A stretch of 64,000 nucleotides of DNA from Streptomyces sp. WZ-12 (lineage in GTDB: Bacteria; Actinomycetota; Actinomycetes; Streptomycetales; Streptomycetaceae), in the NCBI RefSeq assembly GCF_028898845.1, contig NZ_CP118574.1, forward strand, positions 3,038,001 through 3,102,000, given 5' to 3'. Position 1 is the stretch's first letter, and each line of letters begins with the position of its first letter. Below the pieces are notes generated by a model. The model saw only the letters and a list, made by a program, of their open reading frames with translations. It was not told the origin of the DNA and made no database searches. Made by a program: the position numbers and the translations under genes. Shown here piece after piece: positions 30,540 to 62,239 of the stretch.

Positions 30540-31580
30540 GTGGAGCGCAGGACAATCGGCGCGGCGGCCTTGGAGGTGGGCGCGATCGGCCTCGGCTGCA
30601 TGCCGATGAGCTGGGGGTACAGCGCGTCGCAGCGCAGCGGCGAGGGATCGCTGCGGGCACTGCACACCGCGCTCGACCGGGGGTGCAGCCTGGTGGACAC
30701 CGCGGACATGTACGGCCCGTTCACCAACGAGCTGTTGGTGGGGCGGGTCCTCAAGGAACGCCGCGCGGACGCCTTCGTCTCCACCAAGTGCGGGCTGCTC
30801 GCCGGCGACCAGCACATCGTCGCCAACGGGCGGCCCGGCTACATCAAGCGCGCCTGCGACGCGTCGCTGCGCCGGCTGCAGACCGACCACATCGACCTCT
30901 ACCAACTCCACCGCGCGGACCCCGAAGTACCCATCGAGGAGACCTGGGGGGCGATGGCGGAACTGGTGGCGGCCGGCAAGGTGCGCTCGCTGGGGCTGTG
31001 CGCGGTGGGCGCCCGGGCCGCCCGGACCTGGCGCGGCCCCCGGGCGGCCCGGACCGCACCCGACGGCCGGGCGTTCCGCCGCCCCGGCCTGCACGACGGC
31101 ACCCTGCGCCAACTGGAGCGCATCCAGCAGGTGTTCCCGGTCAGCAGCGTGCAGGCCGAGCTGTCCGTGTGGGCGGCGGAGGCGCTGGTCGAACTGCTCC
31201 CGTGGTGCGAGTCGCGCGGCGTGGGCTTCCTGGCCGCGATGCCGCTCGGCAACGGCTTCCTGACCGGCACCCTCACCCCCGGCCAGGGCTTCGAACCGGA
31301 GGACATACGGGCCCGACACCCGCGCTTCACCGCCGAGATGATGGCCGCCAACCAGCCGGTGGTGGCCGGCCTGCGCCGCGTCGGCGCGCGCCACGGGGCC
31401 ACCCCCGGGCAGGTGGCACTCGCCTGGACCCTCGCCCAGGGCCGCCATGTGGTCCCCGTCCCGGGCACGAAGAAGGAACGGTGGGCCGCGCAGAACGCGA
31501 ACGCGGCGGAGCTGGTGTTGAGCCCCGAGGATCTCCGGGAGATCGCCGCGTTGCCCGCGGCGCGGGACTCTTGGTACTAA
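30540..31580 (+). CDS. Aldo/keto reductase
   Basis: The 346-aa NADPH-dependent (alpha/beta)8-barrel oxidoreductase shows the family marks GLGCMPMSWGY, the catalytic Asp/Tyr in LVDTADMYGPF, and the C-terminal NADPH site PVPGTKKERWAAQNANAAEL. It resembles the AKR13-like group. A ~20-residue Arg/Ala/Pro-rich insert (around residue 160) is unusual for the family. GTG 30540 follows GGAGGC. It is convergent with a LuxR gene; the whole space between the two is occupied by palindromic element A. The substrate is unknown. Confidence 0.85.
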   Translation: MERRTIGAAALEVGAIGLGCMPMSWGYSASQRSGEGSLRALHTALDRGCSLVDTADMYGPFTNELLVGRVLKERRADAFVSTKCGLLAGDQHIVANGRPGYIKRACDASLRRLQTDHIDLYQLHRADPEVPIEETWGAMAELVAAGKVRSLGLCAVGARAARTWRGPRAARTAPDGRAFRRPGLHDGTLRQLERIQQVFPVSSVQAELSVWAAEALVELLPWCESRGVGFLAAMPLGNGFLTGTLTPGQGFEPEDIRARHPRFTAEMMAANQPVVAGLRRVGARHGATPGQVALAWTLAQGRHVVPVPGTKKERWAAQNANAAELVLSPEDLREIAALPAARDSWY

Positions 31581-31716
31581 CCGCACGGGCCCCCGGCGGG
31601 TTGGCTTCCCACGTTGCTGGCTTTCCCGCCGCGCGGGTTGCCGGTCCGCTGCCGGTCCGCTGCGCGGGGCGGGTCGAGTTGTGTTGTCCGCTGCGCGGGG
31701 CTGTTGGGTTGCGGTG

Positions 31717-31784
31717 ACGGGCCTGCGGGGCGGGCATGCCAGACTGCTTCGCTTTACGTCTGGCACACCCACCCCTCCGGCCCG
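31717..31784. repeat. Nested hairpin in the left arm of element A
   Basis: GACGGGCC at the left end pairs with GGCCCGTC at the right end. Inside, CGGGG/CCCC blocks and then TGCCAGAC/GTCTGGCA close a 13-nt loop, TGCTTCGCTTTAC. The matching hairpin in the right arm is at about 31993-32063, where GGGGGCGG/CCGCCCCC extends the stem. The same unit occurs twice in element B (about 60502-60570 and 60778-60848). Confidence 0.8.
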
Positions 31785-31861
31785 TCCCCTCCCGTTGGGG
31801 GGTGGGAAAGAACGGTGGGTGCCACGTCCGCCCGGTGGGCCAACTCGGGCCGCTGGGTTGA

Positions 31862-31942
31862 GCGGTGACCGTCAGAGGACGAGTACGCGTGAGCGGTGAT
31901 CGTAAGAAGGCGCATGAGCTTGCGCGGTGACCGTCAGAGGAC
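31862..31942 (+). repeat. Three 31-bp-period direct repeats in the loop of element A
   Basis: GCGGTGACCGTCAGAGGAC at 31862-31880, the variant GCGGTGATCGTAAGAAGGC at 31893-31911, and GCGGTGACCGTCAGAGGAC at 31924-31942. The start-to-start spacing is exactly 31 bp both times, about three helical turns. Copies 1 and 3 contain the dyad TGACCGTCA. The middle variant is preserved identically in element B. Confidence 0.88.
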
Positions 31943-32230
31943 CACTCAGGATCAGCTCCATCCCAGAGAAAACCACCCCTCAACGGGAGGGGACGGGCCG
32001 GAGGGGGCGGTGTGCCAGACGTAAAGCGAAGCAGTCTGGCATGCCGCCCCCGGAGGCCCGTCACCGCAACCCAACAGCCCCGCGCAGCGGACCGGCCCCG
32101 CGCAGCGGACCGGCCCGCGCCGCAGGCGCAAAAACAGCAACCCGCGCGGCGGGAAAGCCAACCACGTGGGCAGCAAACCAAGCGCAGCGGCACGGCGGGA
32201 AAGCCAACAACGTGGGAAGCCAACCCACCG

Positions 32231-35200
32231 TCAGGTGAACAGCCGCAACCGATGGGCGACGGCGCCGGCCTCGCCGCGCCCCGACACCCCCAACTTGGCC
32301 AGGATGTTGGAGACATGAACGCTGGCCGTCTTCGGGGAGATGAACAACTCGTCGGCGATCTGACGGTTGCTGCGGCCATCGGCGACCAGGCGGAGCACAT
32401 CGCGTTCCCGGGGGGTGAGGCCCAGGGACTCGACGGGGGTGGCGGGCGCCGGTGGGCGGGGCGCGTCGGGCGCCGGGCCGCGGCCGGGGAGGGGTATTCG
32501 GGCGCGTTGGGCGAGGAGTTCGAGCTCGCCGGTCAGCGGTCGGGCGCCGGTGCGGACCGCGACCGCGTGCGCCTGTCCGAGCACCAGGACGGCGGCCTCG
32601 CGCGGGGTCCGACCGCTGAGGCCGGCGCTGGCCCGCTCCGTGCCGTGCAGCAGTGACTCGGCCCAGCGGCAGCAGCACCAGGCCAACTCGTGCGGCCGGG
32701 CGAGCCGTTCGAAGGCGGCGACGGCGTGGGCCCAGGCGTCGGGGGACTCCCGGCCCTCGGCGCGGCGGAGTTCGGCCTCGACGGCCGTGCCGTAGGCGTC
32801 CCACACCGGCGAGAGCCGCGGCAGCCGCTTGGCGGCCTGTCGGATGCGGGCGAGGACCTCGGGCCGGCCGGGCTCCGCGGCGGGCAGCCCGCGGGCGTCG
32901 GACTCGACGGCGGTGGCCGACCACAGCAGCGGCCAGGCGTAGCGGTGCAGGCCGGGCGCGAAGCCGGTGCTGGGCGCGACCTGGCGCAGGACGGCCCGGG
33001 CGTCGAGTATCCGGCCCTGGCGGGCGGCGAGCCGCAGCGCGTGCCGCGCCAGGGGGAGGGCGTGTTGCGGCTGGGGGTCGTGGGTGCCGTAGTGCTCCTG
33101 CGCGACGGCCAGTTCGCGCTCGGCGGCGGCCAGATCGCCGGTGTCCAGGGCCAGCGCGGTGAGCCGGCTGGCGGCCAGGGCGATCGCGCGCGGGTCCCGG
33201 GCGAGGCGGCGGGCGTCGGCGGCGGCCCCGCCGGCCTCCTCCCAGCGGCCGAGCGACTGGAGCGATTCGGCGCGGTTGCTCAGCACCCAACTGGTGCTGT
33301 TGGTCAGGCCGTAGCGGGTGGTGAGCTCGACGCCCTGGTCGGTGACGTCCACCGCCTCGCGGGAGCGGCCGACGCCCTCCAGGGTGCCCGGGAGGTTGAC
33401 GTGGCCGCGGGCGATGACCGCGAAGTAGCCCCGGTCGACGGCGCGGTCGAGGACGGTGCGGAACTCGGCGAGGCCCTCCTCGACGTCGCCGGCGTCCACC
33501 CGCAGCCCGGCCAGCGTCACCCGGGAGTTGAGCTCGGCCTCCTCGTCGCCGACCGTACGGGCCAGCTCCACGGCCCGTTCGGCGGTGGCGAAGGCGCCAG
33601 GGCCCGGCTCGTGCAGCATCTGCCAACTGGCGACGGCGGCGGTGACGGTGGCGTGCACGGACGACGGCGGCAGTCCGCGCATCAACTCCTTGGCCTTGCC
33701 CAGGTCTTCCCAGCCGTCGCCGCGGCCGGTGGTCTGGCAGAGCTTGGAGCGCTGCACCAGGAACCAGGCGGTGCGCTGGGCGTCGTGTTCGGTGCGCAGC
33801 GTGCGCAGGGCGCGCTTGGTGATGGTGAAGGCCCGCTCGCCGTCGCCGGACAACCGGGCGGCCACCGCGATCTCGGCGAGCAGATCCAGGAAGCGGAGGG
33901 CCTCGTCGTCGCAGCCGCAGGCCGGGTACGCCTCGGCGTAGTCGACCGGGCGCACCTTCTGGCGGACCTCGACGGGCGCGTCGTCCCACAGCTCCAGGGC
34001 GCGGTCCAGCAGCCGCAGTTGCTCGGCGTAGGCGTGCCGGCGGCGGGCCTGCACGGAGGCGGCGAGGACGGCGGGCAGCGCCTTGGCGGCGTCGTGGGCC
34101 TTGTACCAGTAGCTGGCCAGCCGGGTGGCGCAGACCTCGGAGCGGACGAGGGCCGGGGCGGCCTCCAGGGCCTCGGCGTAGCGGCGGTTGAGGCGGGTGC
34201 GCTCGCCGGGCAGCAGGTCGTCGACGACGGCCTCGCGGACCAGGGCGTGCCGGAAGCGGTAGCCGGTGCCGTCCTGGGTGGGCAGCAGGGTGTTGGAGCC
34301 GACGGCGGCGCGGAGCGCCTCGATGAGGTCGTCCTCGGGCATCCGGCAGACGGCGGCGAGGAGTTCGTGCTCGACGGTGGAGCCGCCCTCGGCGGCGATC
34401 CGCACCACCCGTTGGGCGTCCTCGGGGAGCGCCTCGACGCGCACCAGCAGCAGATCGCGCAGCGGGTCGCTGAGGCCGTAGCGGCAGCCGTCGGCGAGGC
34501 TGCGGGCCAGCTCCTCGACGAAGAAGGCGTTGCCCTCGGAGCGTTTGAAGACCCGGTCGACGGTCTCCTCGGCGGGCTCGCTGCCGCGGATGCCGGCGAT
34601 CTGGGTGCGGACCTCGTCGCGGTTGAAGCGGTCCAGCTCGATGCGGCGGACGGTGCGCATCCGGTCAATCTCGGCGAGGAAGGGGCGCAGCGGATGGCGG
34701 CGGTGGATGTCGTCGGAGCGGTAGGTGGCGACCAGGAGGATGCCGGCGTCGTGGAGGGCGCGCAGGAGGTAGGCGAGCAGTTCGCGGGTGGAGCGGTCGG
34801 CCCAGTGGAGGTCCTCGACGACGAGGACGAGGGTGCGGTGGGCGGCGAGCCGCTCCAGGAGGCGGGCGGTCAGCTCGAAGAGCCGGGCCCGGCCGGTCTC
34901 CTCGTCCCGGCTCTCGCCCGCGGTCTCGCCCAACTCCGGGAGGATCCGGGCCAATTCGCCCTCCTGGCCGGCGACGGCCGCGGCCAGCTCGTCGGGCAGG
35001 TGGGCGTTGAGGGTGTGCAGGACGGCGGAGAACGGGGCGAACGGCAGGCCCTCGGAGCCGATTTCGATGCAGCCGCCGAGCGCGACCTGCGCGCCGCGGT
35101 CGCGGGCCGTCTCGCAGAACTCCTCGATCAGGCGGGTCTTGCCGACCCCGGCCTCGCCCCCGATCAGCAGGGCCTGGGGCTCGCCGGACGCCGCGACCCG

Positions 35201-35287
35201 CGCCAGCGCGTCGCCCAACTCGGCGAGCTCGGCGGCGCGGCCGACGAAGACGGGACTGATCGCTCTGGTCTCCACGGTGCCGAGCAT
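32231..35287 (-). CDS. LAL-type LuxR family regulator with AAA ATPase domain
   Basis: The ~1018-aa protein has an N-terminal ATPase domain (Walker [12 protein letters not shown] near residue 43; Walker [13 protein letters not shown]). A long helical repeat region follows, then a C-terminal LuxR helix-turn-helix (about 955-1005: [26 protein letters not shown]). This is the large ATP-binding LuxR (LAL/MalT-like) architecture, used in pathway-specific or global activation in Streptomyces. ATG 35287 was chosen; no Shine-Dalgarno sequence precedes it, so leaderless translation is possible. Its stop codon directly abuts palindromic element A. The target genes are unknown. Confidence 0.88.
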
Positions 35288-59141: not shown

Positions 59142-60299
59142 TCAGCCGGCCTGCTGCCGCGGGGCGCCCGCGGCGGCGGTGCTGCGCCGCGTGGTGGTGG
59201 CGATCGTCGCCGAACCGACCACCCGCGTGCCGTCGTAGAGCACGATCGCCTGGCCGGGCGCGACGCCACGGACCGGCTCGGTGAAGGAGACCCGCAGCTC
59301 GGTGCCGTCGACCACCTCGGCCCGCACCTCGGTCTCGCCGCCGTGGGCGCGGAGCTGGGCGGTGTAGACGGCCTCGCCGGCCTCCGGCGGGCGGCCGCAC
59401 CAGCGGGGGCGGATCGCGGTGAGCGCGGTCACGTCCAGGGCGGCGGCCGGGCCGACGGTGACGGTGTTGTCCACCGGCGAGATGTCGAGGACGTAGCGGG
59501 GCTTGCCGTCGGCGGCCGGGGTGCCGATGCGCAGGCCCTTGCGCTGGCCGATGGTGAAGCCGTACGCGCCCTCGTGCGTGCCCAGCTTGGCCCCGGACTC
59601 GTCGACGATGTCGCCCTCCGCGGCGCCCAGCCGCTTGGCCAGGAAGCCCTGGGTGTCGCCGTCGGCGATGAAGCAGATGTCGTGGCTGTCGGGCTTCTTG
59701 GCGACGAACAGGCCGCGGCGGGCGGCCTCTTCGCGGATCTCGGCCTTGGTGGTGGGGGTGTCACCGAGCGGGAACATGGCATGCGCCAACTGGCGGTCGT
59801 CGAGCACGCCGAGGACGTAGGACTGGTCCTTGGCCATGTCGGCGGCGCGGTGCAGCTCGCGGGAACCGTCCTCGCGCAGGAGCACCTTGGCGTAGTGGCC
59901 GGTGCACACCGCGTCGAAGCCGAGGGCGAGCGCCTTGTCCAACAGCGCGGCGAACTTGATCTTCTCGTTGCAGCGGAGGCAGGGGTTCGGCGTGCGGCCG
60001 GCCTCGTACTCGGCGATGAAGTCCTCGACCACGTCCTCGCGGAAGCGCTCGGCCAGATCCCAGACGTAGAACGGGATGCCGATCACGTCGGCGGCGCGGC
60101 GGGCGTCGTGGGAGTCCTCGATGGTGCAACAGCCGCGGGCGCCCGTGCGGAACGACTTGGGATTCTCGGAGAGCGCGAGGTGGACGCCGGTGACGTCGTG
60201 GCCCGCCTCGGCGGCGCGGGCCGCGGCGACGGCGGAGTCCACACCGCCGGACATGGCGGCGAGGACGCGGAGGCGGCGGGGGGCGGCGGCATCAGTCAT
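59142..60299 (-). CDS. mnmA: tRNA-specific 2-thiouridylase
   Basis: The 385-aa PP-loop ATPase adenylates and thiolates U34 of Lys, Glu and Gln tRNAs. The P-loop is [11 protein letters not shown]. The two catalytic cysteines lie in [12 protein letters not shown] and [10 protein letters not shown], and GQRKGLRIG follows. Sulfur should come from the cysteine desulfurase gene upstream on the same strand. That gene is separated by the 758-bp palindromic element B, so mnmA either depends on read-through or on a promoter inside the element. ATG 60299 has GAAGGG upstream, just outside the element. Confidence 0.95.
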
Positions 60300-60311: not shown

Positions 60312-61069
60312 GTAGACGGTCCGCTGCGTTTGGCTTGCGGCCCACGTTGTCGGCTTTCCCGCCGCGCGGGTTCCTGTCTTTTGCGCCTGCGGCGCGGGCC
60401 GATCCGCTGCGCGGGGCGAGCCGATGTGTCCGCTGCCGGTCCGCTTGCGCGGGGCGGGTCGAGTTGTCTGGTCCGCTGCGCGGGGCTGTTGGGTTGCGGT
60501 GACGGGCCTGCGGGGGCGGTGTGCCAGACTGCTTCGCTTTACGTCTGGCACACCGCCCCCTCCGGCCCGTCCCCTCCCGTTGAGGGGTGGATTTCTCTGG
60601 GATGGAGCTGATCCTGAGTGGTCCTCTGACGGTCACCGCGCAAGCTCATGCGCCTTCTTACGATCACCGCTCACGCGTACTCGTCCTCTGACGGTCACCA
60701 CTCAACCCAACGACCCGAGTTGACCCACCGGGCGGACGTGGCACCCACCGTTTTTTCCCACCCTCCAACGGGAGGGGACGGGCCGGAGGGGTGGGTGTGC
60801 CAGACGTAAAGCGAAGCAGTCTGGCATGCCCGCCCCGCAGGCCCGTCACCGCAACCCAACAGCCCCGCGCAGCGGACCACAACCCCACCCGCCCCGCGCA
60901 AGCGGACCGGCAGCGGACCAGACAACTCGGCTCGCCCCGCGCAAGCGGACCGGCAGCGGACACATCGGCTCGCCCCGCGCAGCGGACCGGCCCGCGCCGC
61001 AAGGCGCAAAAGACAGCAACCCGCGCGGCGGGACAGCCAACCACGTGGGCAGCAAGCCCAGCGCAGCGC
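60312..61069. repeat. Palindromic element B (inverted copy of element A)
   Basis: The arms span about 60318-60590 and 60756-61069 and flank a loop of ~165 bp. The loop, read on the minus strand, is almost identical to that of element A; I found one substitution in the ~110-bp repeat core (TGGTGACC for CGGTGACC). The right arm is longer than in A because GC-rich units around GCCCCGCGCAAGCGGACCGG are repeated. Each arm again folds around GCCAGAC/GTCTGGC. It lies between two co-directional genes, ending at the stop codon of the cysteine desulfurase and just before the mnmA ribosome-binding site. Confidence 0.85.
60621..60701 (-). repeat. Three 31-bp-period direct repeats in the loop of element B
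   Basis: On the minus strand the units occupy 60701-60683, 60670-60652 and 60639-60621, again exactly 31 bp apart. The middle unit is the same GATCGTAAGAAGGC variant as in element A. The 12-bp spacers are also conserved between the two elements. Confidence 0.88.
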
Positions 61070-62239
61070 CTAGCTGAGGCCCGCCCCCCGAGCTCGCTCC
61101 ACCACCGGGCCGATGATCTCGGCCAGGGCCGCCACGTCCGCGGCGGTGGAGGTGTGGCCCAGGGAGAAGCGGAGGGTGCCGCGGGCGAGGTCCTGGGGCA
61201 TTCCGGTCGCCAGCAGGACGTGGCTGGGCTGGGCGACGCCGGCGGTGCAGGCCGATCCGGTGGAGCAGGCGATGCCCTGGGCGTCCAGGAGGAGCAGCAG
61301 GGAGTCGCCCTCACAGCCGGGGAAGGTGAAGTGGGCGTTGGCCGGGAGGCGGCCGGCCGGGTCCGGGTCACCACCCAGGATGGCGTCGGGCGCGGCCGCC
61401 CGGACCGCCTTGATCAGGTCGTCGCGGAGCGCGCCGATCTCACGGGCGAACTCCTCCCGGTGCGCCACCGCGTGCCGACCGGCCGCGGCGAACGCGGCGA
61501 TGGCGGGGGTGTCGAGGGTGCCGGAGCGGACGTGCCGCTCCTGCCCGCCGCCGTGCAGCACCGGCACGGGGGCGTGCTCCCGGCGCAGCAGCAGCGCGCC
61601 GATCCCGTACGGGCCGCCGATCTTGTGGCCGGAGACGGTCATCGCGGCGAGCCCGGAGGCGGCGAAGTCGACCTCCAACTGGCCCACCGCCTGCACCGCG
61701 TCGGCGTGTAGCGGGACCTCGAACTCCCGCGCCACCTCGGCCAGTTCGCGGACCGGCTGGACGGTGCCGATCTCGTTGTTGGCCCACATGACGGTGGCCA
61801 GCGCGACGTCGTCGGGGTTGCGGGCGATGGCCTCCCGCAGCGCCTCGGCGGACACCCGGCCGTACGGGTCGACCGGCAGCCAGTCGACCGTGGCGCCCTC
61901 GTGCTCGCCGAGCCACTCGACGGCGTCCAGGACGGCGTGGTGTTCGACGGGACTGGCCAGGACCCGGGTGCGGGCCGGGTCGGCCGCCCGGCGGGACCAG
62001 TACAGGCCCTTGACCGCGAGGTTGTCGGCCTCCGTGCCGCCCGCCGTGAAGACGACTTCACTGGGGCGCGCGCCCAAGGAGGCGGCGAGCGATTCCCGCG
62101 CCTCCTCGACGGTGCGCCGGGCCCGCCGGCCGGCGGCGTGCAGCGAGGACGCGTTGCCGGTGACGGTCAACTGGGCGGTCATCGCCTGCACCGCCTCCGG
62201 GAGCATCGGAGTGGTAGCGGCGTGGTCGAGGTAAACCAT
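61070..62239 (-). CDS. Cysteine desulfurase (NifS/IscS-like)
   Basis: The 389-aa PLP enzyme takes sulfur from cysteine as a persulfide. Marks are [17 protein letters not shown], the [11 protein letters not shown]is, [13 protein letters not shown], the PLP Lys in [16 protein letters not shown] and the persulfide Cys in [18 protein letters not shown]. The short loop around the Cys suits group I (IscS-type) enzymes. It lies upstream of mnmA in the same direction and is its likely sulfur donor. It could also serve other sulfur pathways, including DNA phosphorothioation where dndA is missing. Confidence 0.92.

Follow-up and report, generated by a model that had tools for sequence, protein, structure and literature searches.

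The 64,000-nucleotide window of Streptomyces sp. WZ-12 analysed here (genome G000, two contigs, 9.55 Mb; "window" denotes the whole stretch of DNA) contains, between an aldo/keto reductase (AKR) gene and a LuxR-type regulator gene, a large nested palindrome at 31594-32230 (element A) that belongs to a family of modular, multi-copy repeats present as inverted doublets and as single units. The family has a covarying core stem, is concentrated at gene 3' ends and between convergent genes, occupies sites that are empty in relatives, keeps the identities of its left and right arms from copy to copy and is homogenised within each genome. With a probability of roughly 0.6, we read it as a dispersed, non-autonomous family of REPIN-like doublets, homogenised genome by genome and either tolerated or used as 3'-end structures. 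It is apparently undescribed: a search of Rfam and open-access PMC text found neither a description of the family nor the core sequence in text, in agreement with an earlier sequence-only reading of this DNA that knew of no family covering the palindrome.

Element A is a complete inverted doublet (31594..32230, no strand) between the AKR gene (30540-31580, + strand) and the LuxR/AAA regulator gene (32231-35287, - strand). Its left unit, or arm (31599..31805, + strand), carries an outer hairpin module, hp1, at 31608-31631 and a 79 nt core hairpin at 31713..31791 (+ strand) with the loop motif GACTGCTTCGCTTTACGTC at 31742-31760. The right unit (31973..32230, - strand) carries a 79 nt core hairpin at 31989..32067 (- strand), its loop motif at 32018-32036, and two tandem hp1 modules (32147-32170 and 32193-32216). 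Between the arms lies an asymmetric spacer of 167 nt (31806..31972, no strand) with three degenerate 31-nt direct repeats (31859-31951). Inverted-repeat alignment of 31599-31805 with 31973-32179 gives 81.4% over 220 columns at a separation of 167 nt; the inner 120 nt of the arms are 95% complementary, and complementarity is 93% between the outer 41-nt segments 31594-31634 and 32190-32230. The sequence-only reading had described near-complementary arms, each with its own long hairpin, around an asymmetric loop, and had expected a very long folded structure. Both descriptions hold, the element folding at -521.8 kcal/mol as RNA (z -19.9) and at -307.7 as DNA (z -21.8), with 0/20 shuffles equalling either value. 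Also as described there, the element sits flush with the neighbouring stop codons, starting 13-17 bp past that of the AKR gene (31578-31580) and 0 bp past that of the LuxR gene (32231-32233), and it contains no credible gene, none being called within it by a purpose-built codon-usage gene caller that misses some real genes.

A second doublet in the window, element B (60321..61069, no strand), lies in the opposite orientation between mnmA (59142-60299, - strand) and an aminotransferase class V gene (61070-62239, - strand) that is cysteine-desulfurase-like by context. Its arms carry the core loop motif at 60527..60545 (+ strand) and 60803..60821 (- strand), and its spacer is 97% identical to that of element A over 186 nt. 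Element B directly follows the aminotransferase stop codon and lies ~22 bp ahead of the mnmA start; the mnmA promoter may be supplied or disturbed by it.

Matches to the family occur in at least 40 places in the WZ-12 genome (a lower bound, 40 of 177 candidates having been scored), a copy count that excludes the possibility, raised in the sequence-only reading, of a sequence unique to two spots through a recent duplication. At no more than one mismatch the core motif is present in 70 copies (34 + 36 by strand; reversed control 0), 67 of which fall within the retrieved places, and a looser scan of those places recovers 69 cores in 29 doublets (two cores each) and 11 single-core sites. Copies were found at 1.26-7.40 Mb of the 9.17 Mb contig. 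On contig C1, no element was found within ~0.8 Mb of dnaA (4.62 Mb), that is, at 3.86-5.46 Mb, nor in the arms beyond 1.26 and 7.40 Mb (p ~1e-7 for the outer thirds if 40 sites were placed uniformly); element-free stretches also contain dnaA in genomes G088 and G318.

Across the genus, with WZ-12 itself counted, the core motif is present in 15 of 392 Streptomyces genomes, at 1 to 70 copies each, the named carriers among the matches listed including S. noursei, S. lydicus, S. albospinus, S. niger, S. nigrescens, S. celluloflavus, S. sioyaensis and S. rhizoryzae. Two of the 120 loci listed, in an acidobacterial MAG and Paenibacillus, are single matches that were treated as chance and excluded from the core counts. 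A whole-element DNA search of 60 relatives gave nothing longer than short matches, which occurred in 19 of the genomes (best E 4.6e-7, G036). The family is wider than its canonical core loop: relative G161 has 32 hp1 matches yet one canonical core; hp1 itself is missing from 3 of 9 genomes tested. In genome G036, which has neither hp1 nor the core motif, three loci (L031, L050, L052) carry a remotely related repeat that has tandem modules and small hairpins of its own. Among the contigs listed, several stop within ~100 bp of a core; short-read assembly thus seems to fail at the hairpins, and the family may be more numerous than these counts show. Spread on plasmids was considered and rejected: three plasmid records match the whole element, and a 2.8 Mb Streptomyces replicon is the only one in which the match extends over most of the element and the only one matched by the core alone. 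A phage search gave no match.

Read from its outer end, a unit consists of hp1 (CCCACGTTGTTGGCTTTCCCGCCG and variants), one or more small hairpins and then the ~79 nt core hairpin, for a total of ~200 bp. A doublet is two inverted copies of this directional unit, with the cores inward around a spacer and the hp1 modules forming terminal inverted repeats at both ends; single units also exist. CT34 and MspMP-M5 (L105, L155) have the outer modules expanded beside the AKR gene into tandem arrays of roughly 48-60 nt. Among 203 distinct cores drawn from G000, G088, G318, G335 and named records, each of the 15 inner pairs of the core stem forms in 91-99% of cores and shows 2-4 pair types, positions 16-18 are mostly unpaired, and overall pairing is 0.859 compared with 0.351-0.501 in six slid registers. 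The 19-nt core loop is nearly invariant, a conservation that is partly ascertained as the cores were located through the loop motif, and has one often-variable position (T 168, G 35). The G161 elements displayed have a shorter core and, in the middle, a long symmetric hairpin that includes A- and T-tracts.

Covariation and strong folding would also be expected of a structured non-coding RNA gene family, of sRNA or riboswitch-like type. We consider this highly improbable. The window contains no Rfam family at gathering score, the matches at E<=1 being eukaryotic microRNA hairpin models only, all far under their gathering scores; a scan for sigma-70 type promoters gave 0 matches; the two strands are equivalent in doublets; and the genes adjoining the copies are functionally unrelated.

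Comparison across species reveals both occupied and empty sites. At 20 of the 39 WZ-12 sites, the same neighbour gene stands beside a unit in another sampled record, and six sites are common to WZ-12 and G088. For site A, 19 orthologous AKR loci were displayed from a search of 27 genomes. In G199, G289 and G335 the gene is followed by unit modules, and in 16 the site is empty; MspMP-M5 and CT34 also have unit modules there. Nine relatives have a glucose/sorbosone dehydrogenase gene between the AKR and LuxR genes that is absent from the WZ-12 window, and the WZ-12 LuxR protein ends in RLFT, while that of eight relatives runs on for 5 to 12 residues. Site B is empty in 23 of 23 other genomes; in the two relatives checked (G088, G199) the gap holds an amidase gene, and most of the other gaps match this size. 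At sites A and B the doublet thus occupies the place of other DNA in relatives, up to or slightly into coding sequence. Replacement by a doublet in one step and removal through recombination between copies both stand as readings of this pattern. At two further sites, an element recurs in several records. One beside a DUF3027 gene is common to ten sampled loci (L246, L260, L104, L125 and six more) in several species and escapes homogenisation, the L246 and L260 spacers containing a AAAGACCAG...CTGGTCTTT type palindrome; at the other, one gene pair carries the element in five records (L078 and its orthologues L132, L137, L178 and L215) with differing spacers.

The position of the copies relative to genes is strongly biased. 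Contexts were taken from the purpose-built gene caller in G000, G088 and G318 and are estimates, as real genes such as the amidase were missed. By these calls, 38 of 82 sites lie in convergent, 39 in tandem and 5 in divergent gaps, against 31, 182 and 63 of 276 other neighbouring pairs (over the three genomes, odds ratio 6.8 and p 5e-11 for convergent enrichment; odds ratio 0.22 and p 4e-4 for divergent gaps). All five divergent sites are in WZ-12 (5/39 sites), where the depletion is non-significant (p 0.36). Where hp1 faces the 3' end of a gene it starts at a median of 11 nt past the stop codon, within 30 nt in 75 of 81 cases; where it faces a start codon the median is 62 nt before it, and 4 of 38 lie within that distance of 30 nt (Mann-Whitney p 2e-14). 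Sides lacking an hp1 match, 10/91 stop-facing and 5/43 start-facing, are omitted from this comparison. A fixed orientation of single units to transcription was rejected, the solos in tandem gaps of G088 being mixed.

This bias is also what would be expected of a host-serving bidirectional terminator or 3'-end structure that is inherited in place and not actively mobile, its copies kept alike by ectopic gene conversion through the conserved cores. The flush position at stop codons, the convergent enrichment, the homogenised spacers described below and the 20 of 39 sites common between species all favour such a structure, as do the G161 elements, in which 14 spacers fold as long palindromes and a hairpin followed by a T-tract occurs on 15 of 28 strands compared with 0.143 in shuffles. 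Against it, site B is private to WZ-12 and site A is limited to a clade, which implies that copies do appear; five of the WZ-12 sites are in divergent gaps; and 19 of 38 WZ-12 spacer strands are terminator-like compared with 0.456 in shuffles, which is no signal. The shuffles were mononucleotide and are weak for AT-richer spacers, so the scan is read as signal only in G161 and in some G088 spacers, which form hairpins of -39 to -47 kcal/mol. Both strands at once are terminator-like in 2 of 14 G161 spacers and 1 of 19 WZ-12 spacers. In element A, a terminator scan finds three sites where 0.8 are expected, one of them clear (31992-31976, read from the LuxR side) and two weaker. In S. clavuligerus, many mapped transcript ends are structured but U-poor (PMC8269248), so a missing T-tract is compatible with function. 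We regard an immobile terminator as a real but doubtful account of the family. The two-way transcription block proposed in the sequence-only reading accordingly stays plausible for its convergent preference, flush stop codons and terminator-like G161 centres, and finds no support above shuffles in the WZ-12 spacers. Judged from their place and from the G161 centres, the elements may block transcription.

The arms and spacers indicate how the copies relate to one another. In the 22 of 29 WZ-12 doublets with clear spacer orientation, similarity is 0.925 between left arms, 0.938 between right arms and 0.876 between the left and right arms of one copy. Because like arms across copies are more similar than the two arms of a single copy, doublets appear to be copied as oriented wholes, and these 22 comparisons point indirectly to the doublet as the probable replicating unit, as in REPINs. 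Spacer similarity is 0.615 for 24 orthologous pairs and 0.602 for non-orthologous pairs from the same genomes (p 0.21), compared with 0.698 for copies within the same genome (p 0.001), which score higher in 18 of 24 cases; the pairs are non-independent and the p values rough. Without one old site common to many species, the values are 0.608, 0.600 and 0.726, the own-genome value being higher in 18 of 19. Spacers are thus homogenised within each genome.

The agent of copying was sought among known enzymes and signatures. RAYT (Y1, PF01797) gave 0 matches in WZ-12, was found in one of the 15 carriers (G218) and was absent from 13 of the 14 others. No target-site duplication was detected in 63 doublets, the longest shared flank word being 3.17 compared with 3.16 in shuffled pairs. 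The absence of a RAYT (Y1) gene from WZ-12 and of target duplications from the doublets is why we do not class the family as REPIN. The terminal inverted repeats agree with a MITE; the lack of target-site duplications over the same doublets does not. Gene cargo or a recurrent neighbour was also rejected: among the 73 proteins neighbouring copies, no mobile family recurs in the 25 families listed. The non-autonomous mobile element suggested in the sequence-only reading thereby emerges as the best supported of its three proposals through the dispersed gene-less doublets, the occupied and empty sites and the left/right arm identities; a mobilising enzyme and target duplication did not turn up.

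For the REPIN-like doublet family that we prefer, a trans-acting process recognising the hairpin would copy the doublet as a whole, and each genome would be kept uniform by ectopic conversion or by insertion anew into copies already in place. Copies would then persist where genes end, taking over as the 3'-end structure through protection of the mRNA end, termination or both, after which spacer sequence made redundant could be lost as far as the stop codon. Against this reading, the 20 of 39 sites common between species also fit copies that are old, vertically inherited and subject to conversion but seldom move.

A further account places the function in DNA. The elements would work as single-stranded DNA structures in replication, recombination or protein binding, their hairpins capped by GNA triloops of the kind found in Streptomyces telomere palindromes, and their folding as RNA would be incidental. 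Read on the complementary strand, the often-variable loop position is the N in a GNA triloop, and of 259 oriented triloops 58 are TGC and 34 TTC, an excess that corresponds to GCA and GAA, of the GNA class, on the opposite strand; their complements are far fewer (GAA 7, GCA below the 12 listed). GNA loops give extraordinarily stable DNA minihairpins (PMC4686876), telomere palindromes II and III of Streptomyces have GCA loops bound by Tap (PMC4513846), and both G088 chromosome ends carry TGC- and TTC-capped palindromes. Other triloops, however, are frequent (CGC 41, mostly in WZ-12; GGG 16), few TGC triloops occur in G088 and G161 elements, and the cores taken from named records were selected with T or G permitted at the variable position, though those from G000, G088 and G318 were not. 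TCCGCTGCGC occurs twice per G088 end, and the other five family modules 0 times in nine sampled chromosome ends. Modules in common with telomeres were likewise rejected, with nothing beyond a 10-mer at the sampled ends. A DNA-level hairpin is attractive, not proven, and as the whole explanation we think it quite unlikely; the DNA-type GNA triloops are suggestive of the chromosome-structure site that the sequence-only reading had listed.

A more far-reaching speculation is one that we consider unlikely. The family would be a single-stranded DNA hairpin mobile system of linear-chromosome bacteria, in which GNA-capped, telomere-like doublets are copied or converted by a host or cryptic factor reading the core loop. 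They would take the place of neighbouring DNA as far as the nearest stop codon and so become the common 3' end of convergent genes, with each genome holding its own synchronised version.

In enterics and pseudomonads, interspersed palindromic repeats are linked to RAYT transposases. The Streptomyces family follows the same doublet plan with much larger units, has no RAYT in WZ-12, is strongly homogenised within genomes and sits flush with stop codons, and would thus represent an independent instance. It raises testable questions about the agent that copies repeats of this kind, about whether the copies are synchronised by ectopic conversion and about whether the elements set transcript ends, and it offers a handle on how repeats spread and affect gene ends.

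Among known systems, the closest likeness is to REPINs and REP-RAYT systems (PMC3116915, PMC3733652). These too are intergenic and pair palindromic units in inverted orientation around a spacer, are copied as doublets with singlets alongside, and are preferentially placed in convergent and unidirectional gaps. The Streptomyces units differ in being ~200 bp rather than the 20-40 bp of REPs and in combining several different hairpin modules, and the family differs from REPINs in its near-invariant 19-nt core loop, in the lack of a Y1/RAYT gene in WZ-12 and in its per-genome homogenised spacers. By its size, the ~79 nt core hairpin also falls outside the short 20-40 nt unit with a GTAG or CGTC tag that defines REPs. 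With BIMEs, the family has in common a mosaic of palindromic modules, alternating orientation and tandem expansion of outer modules; unrelated modules, the flush fit to stop codons and the taxon, Streptomyces, set it apart. Bidirectional intrinsic terminators of Streptomyces (PMC8269248) resemble it in lying between convergent genes, and the G161 spacers resemble them as long symmetric hairpins with A- and T-tracts; they lack, however, a 600-nt repeat family around the hairpin, and most WZ-12 spacers are without a central palindrome. Streptomyces telomere palindromes (PMC4513846) have in common with it the GNA-type triloop hairpins, whereas the elements are internal and dispersed, absent from the WZ-12 chromosome arms and without a long sequence in common with telomeres, the inspected replicon ends being without long modules. 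Overall, the family works most like REPIN and BIME repeats and, because the RAYT test failed and the scale differs, is best described as a variant of these systems rather than a member.
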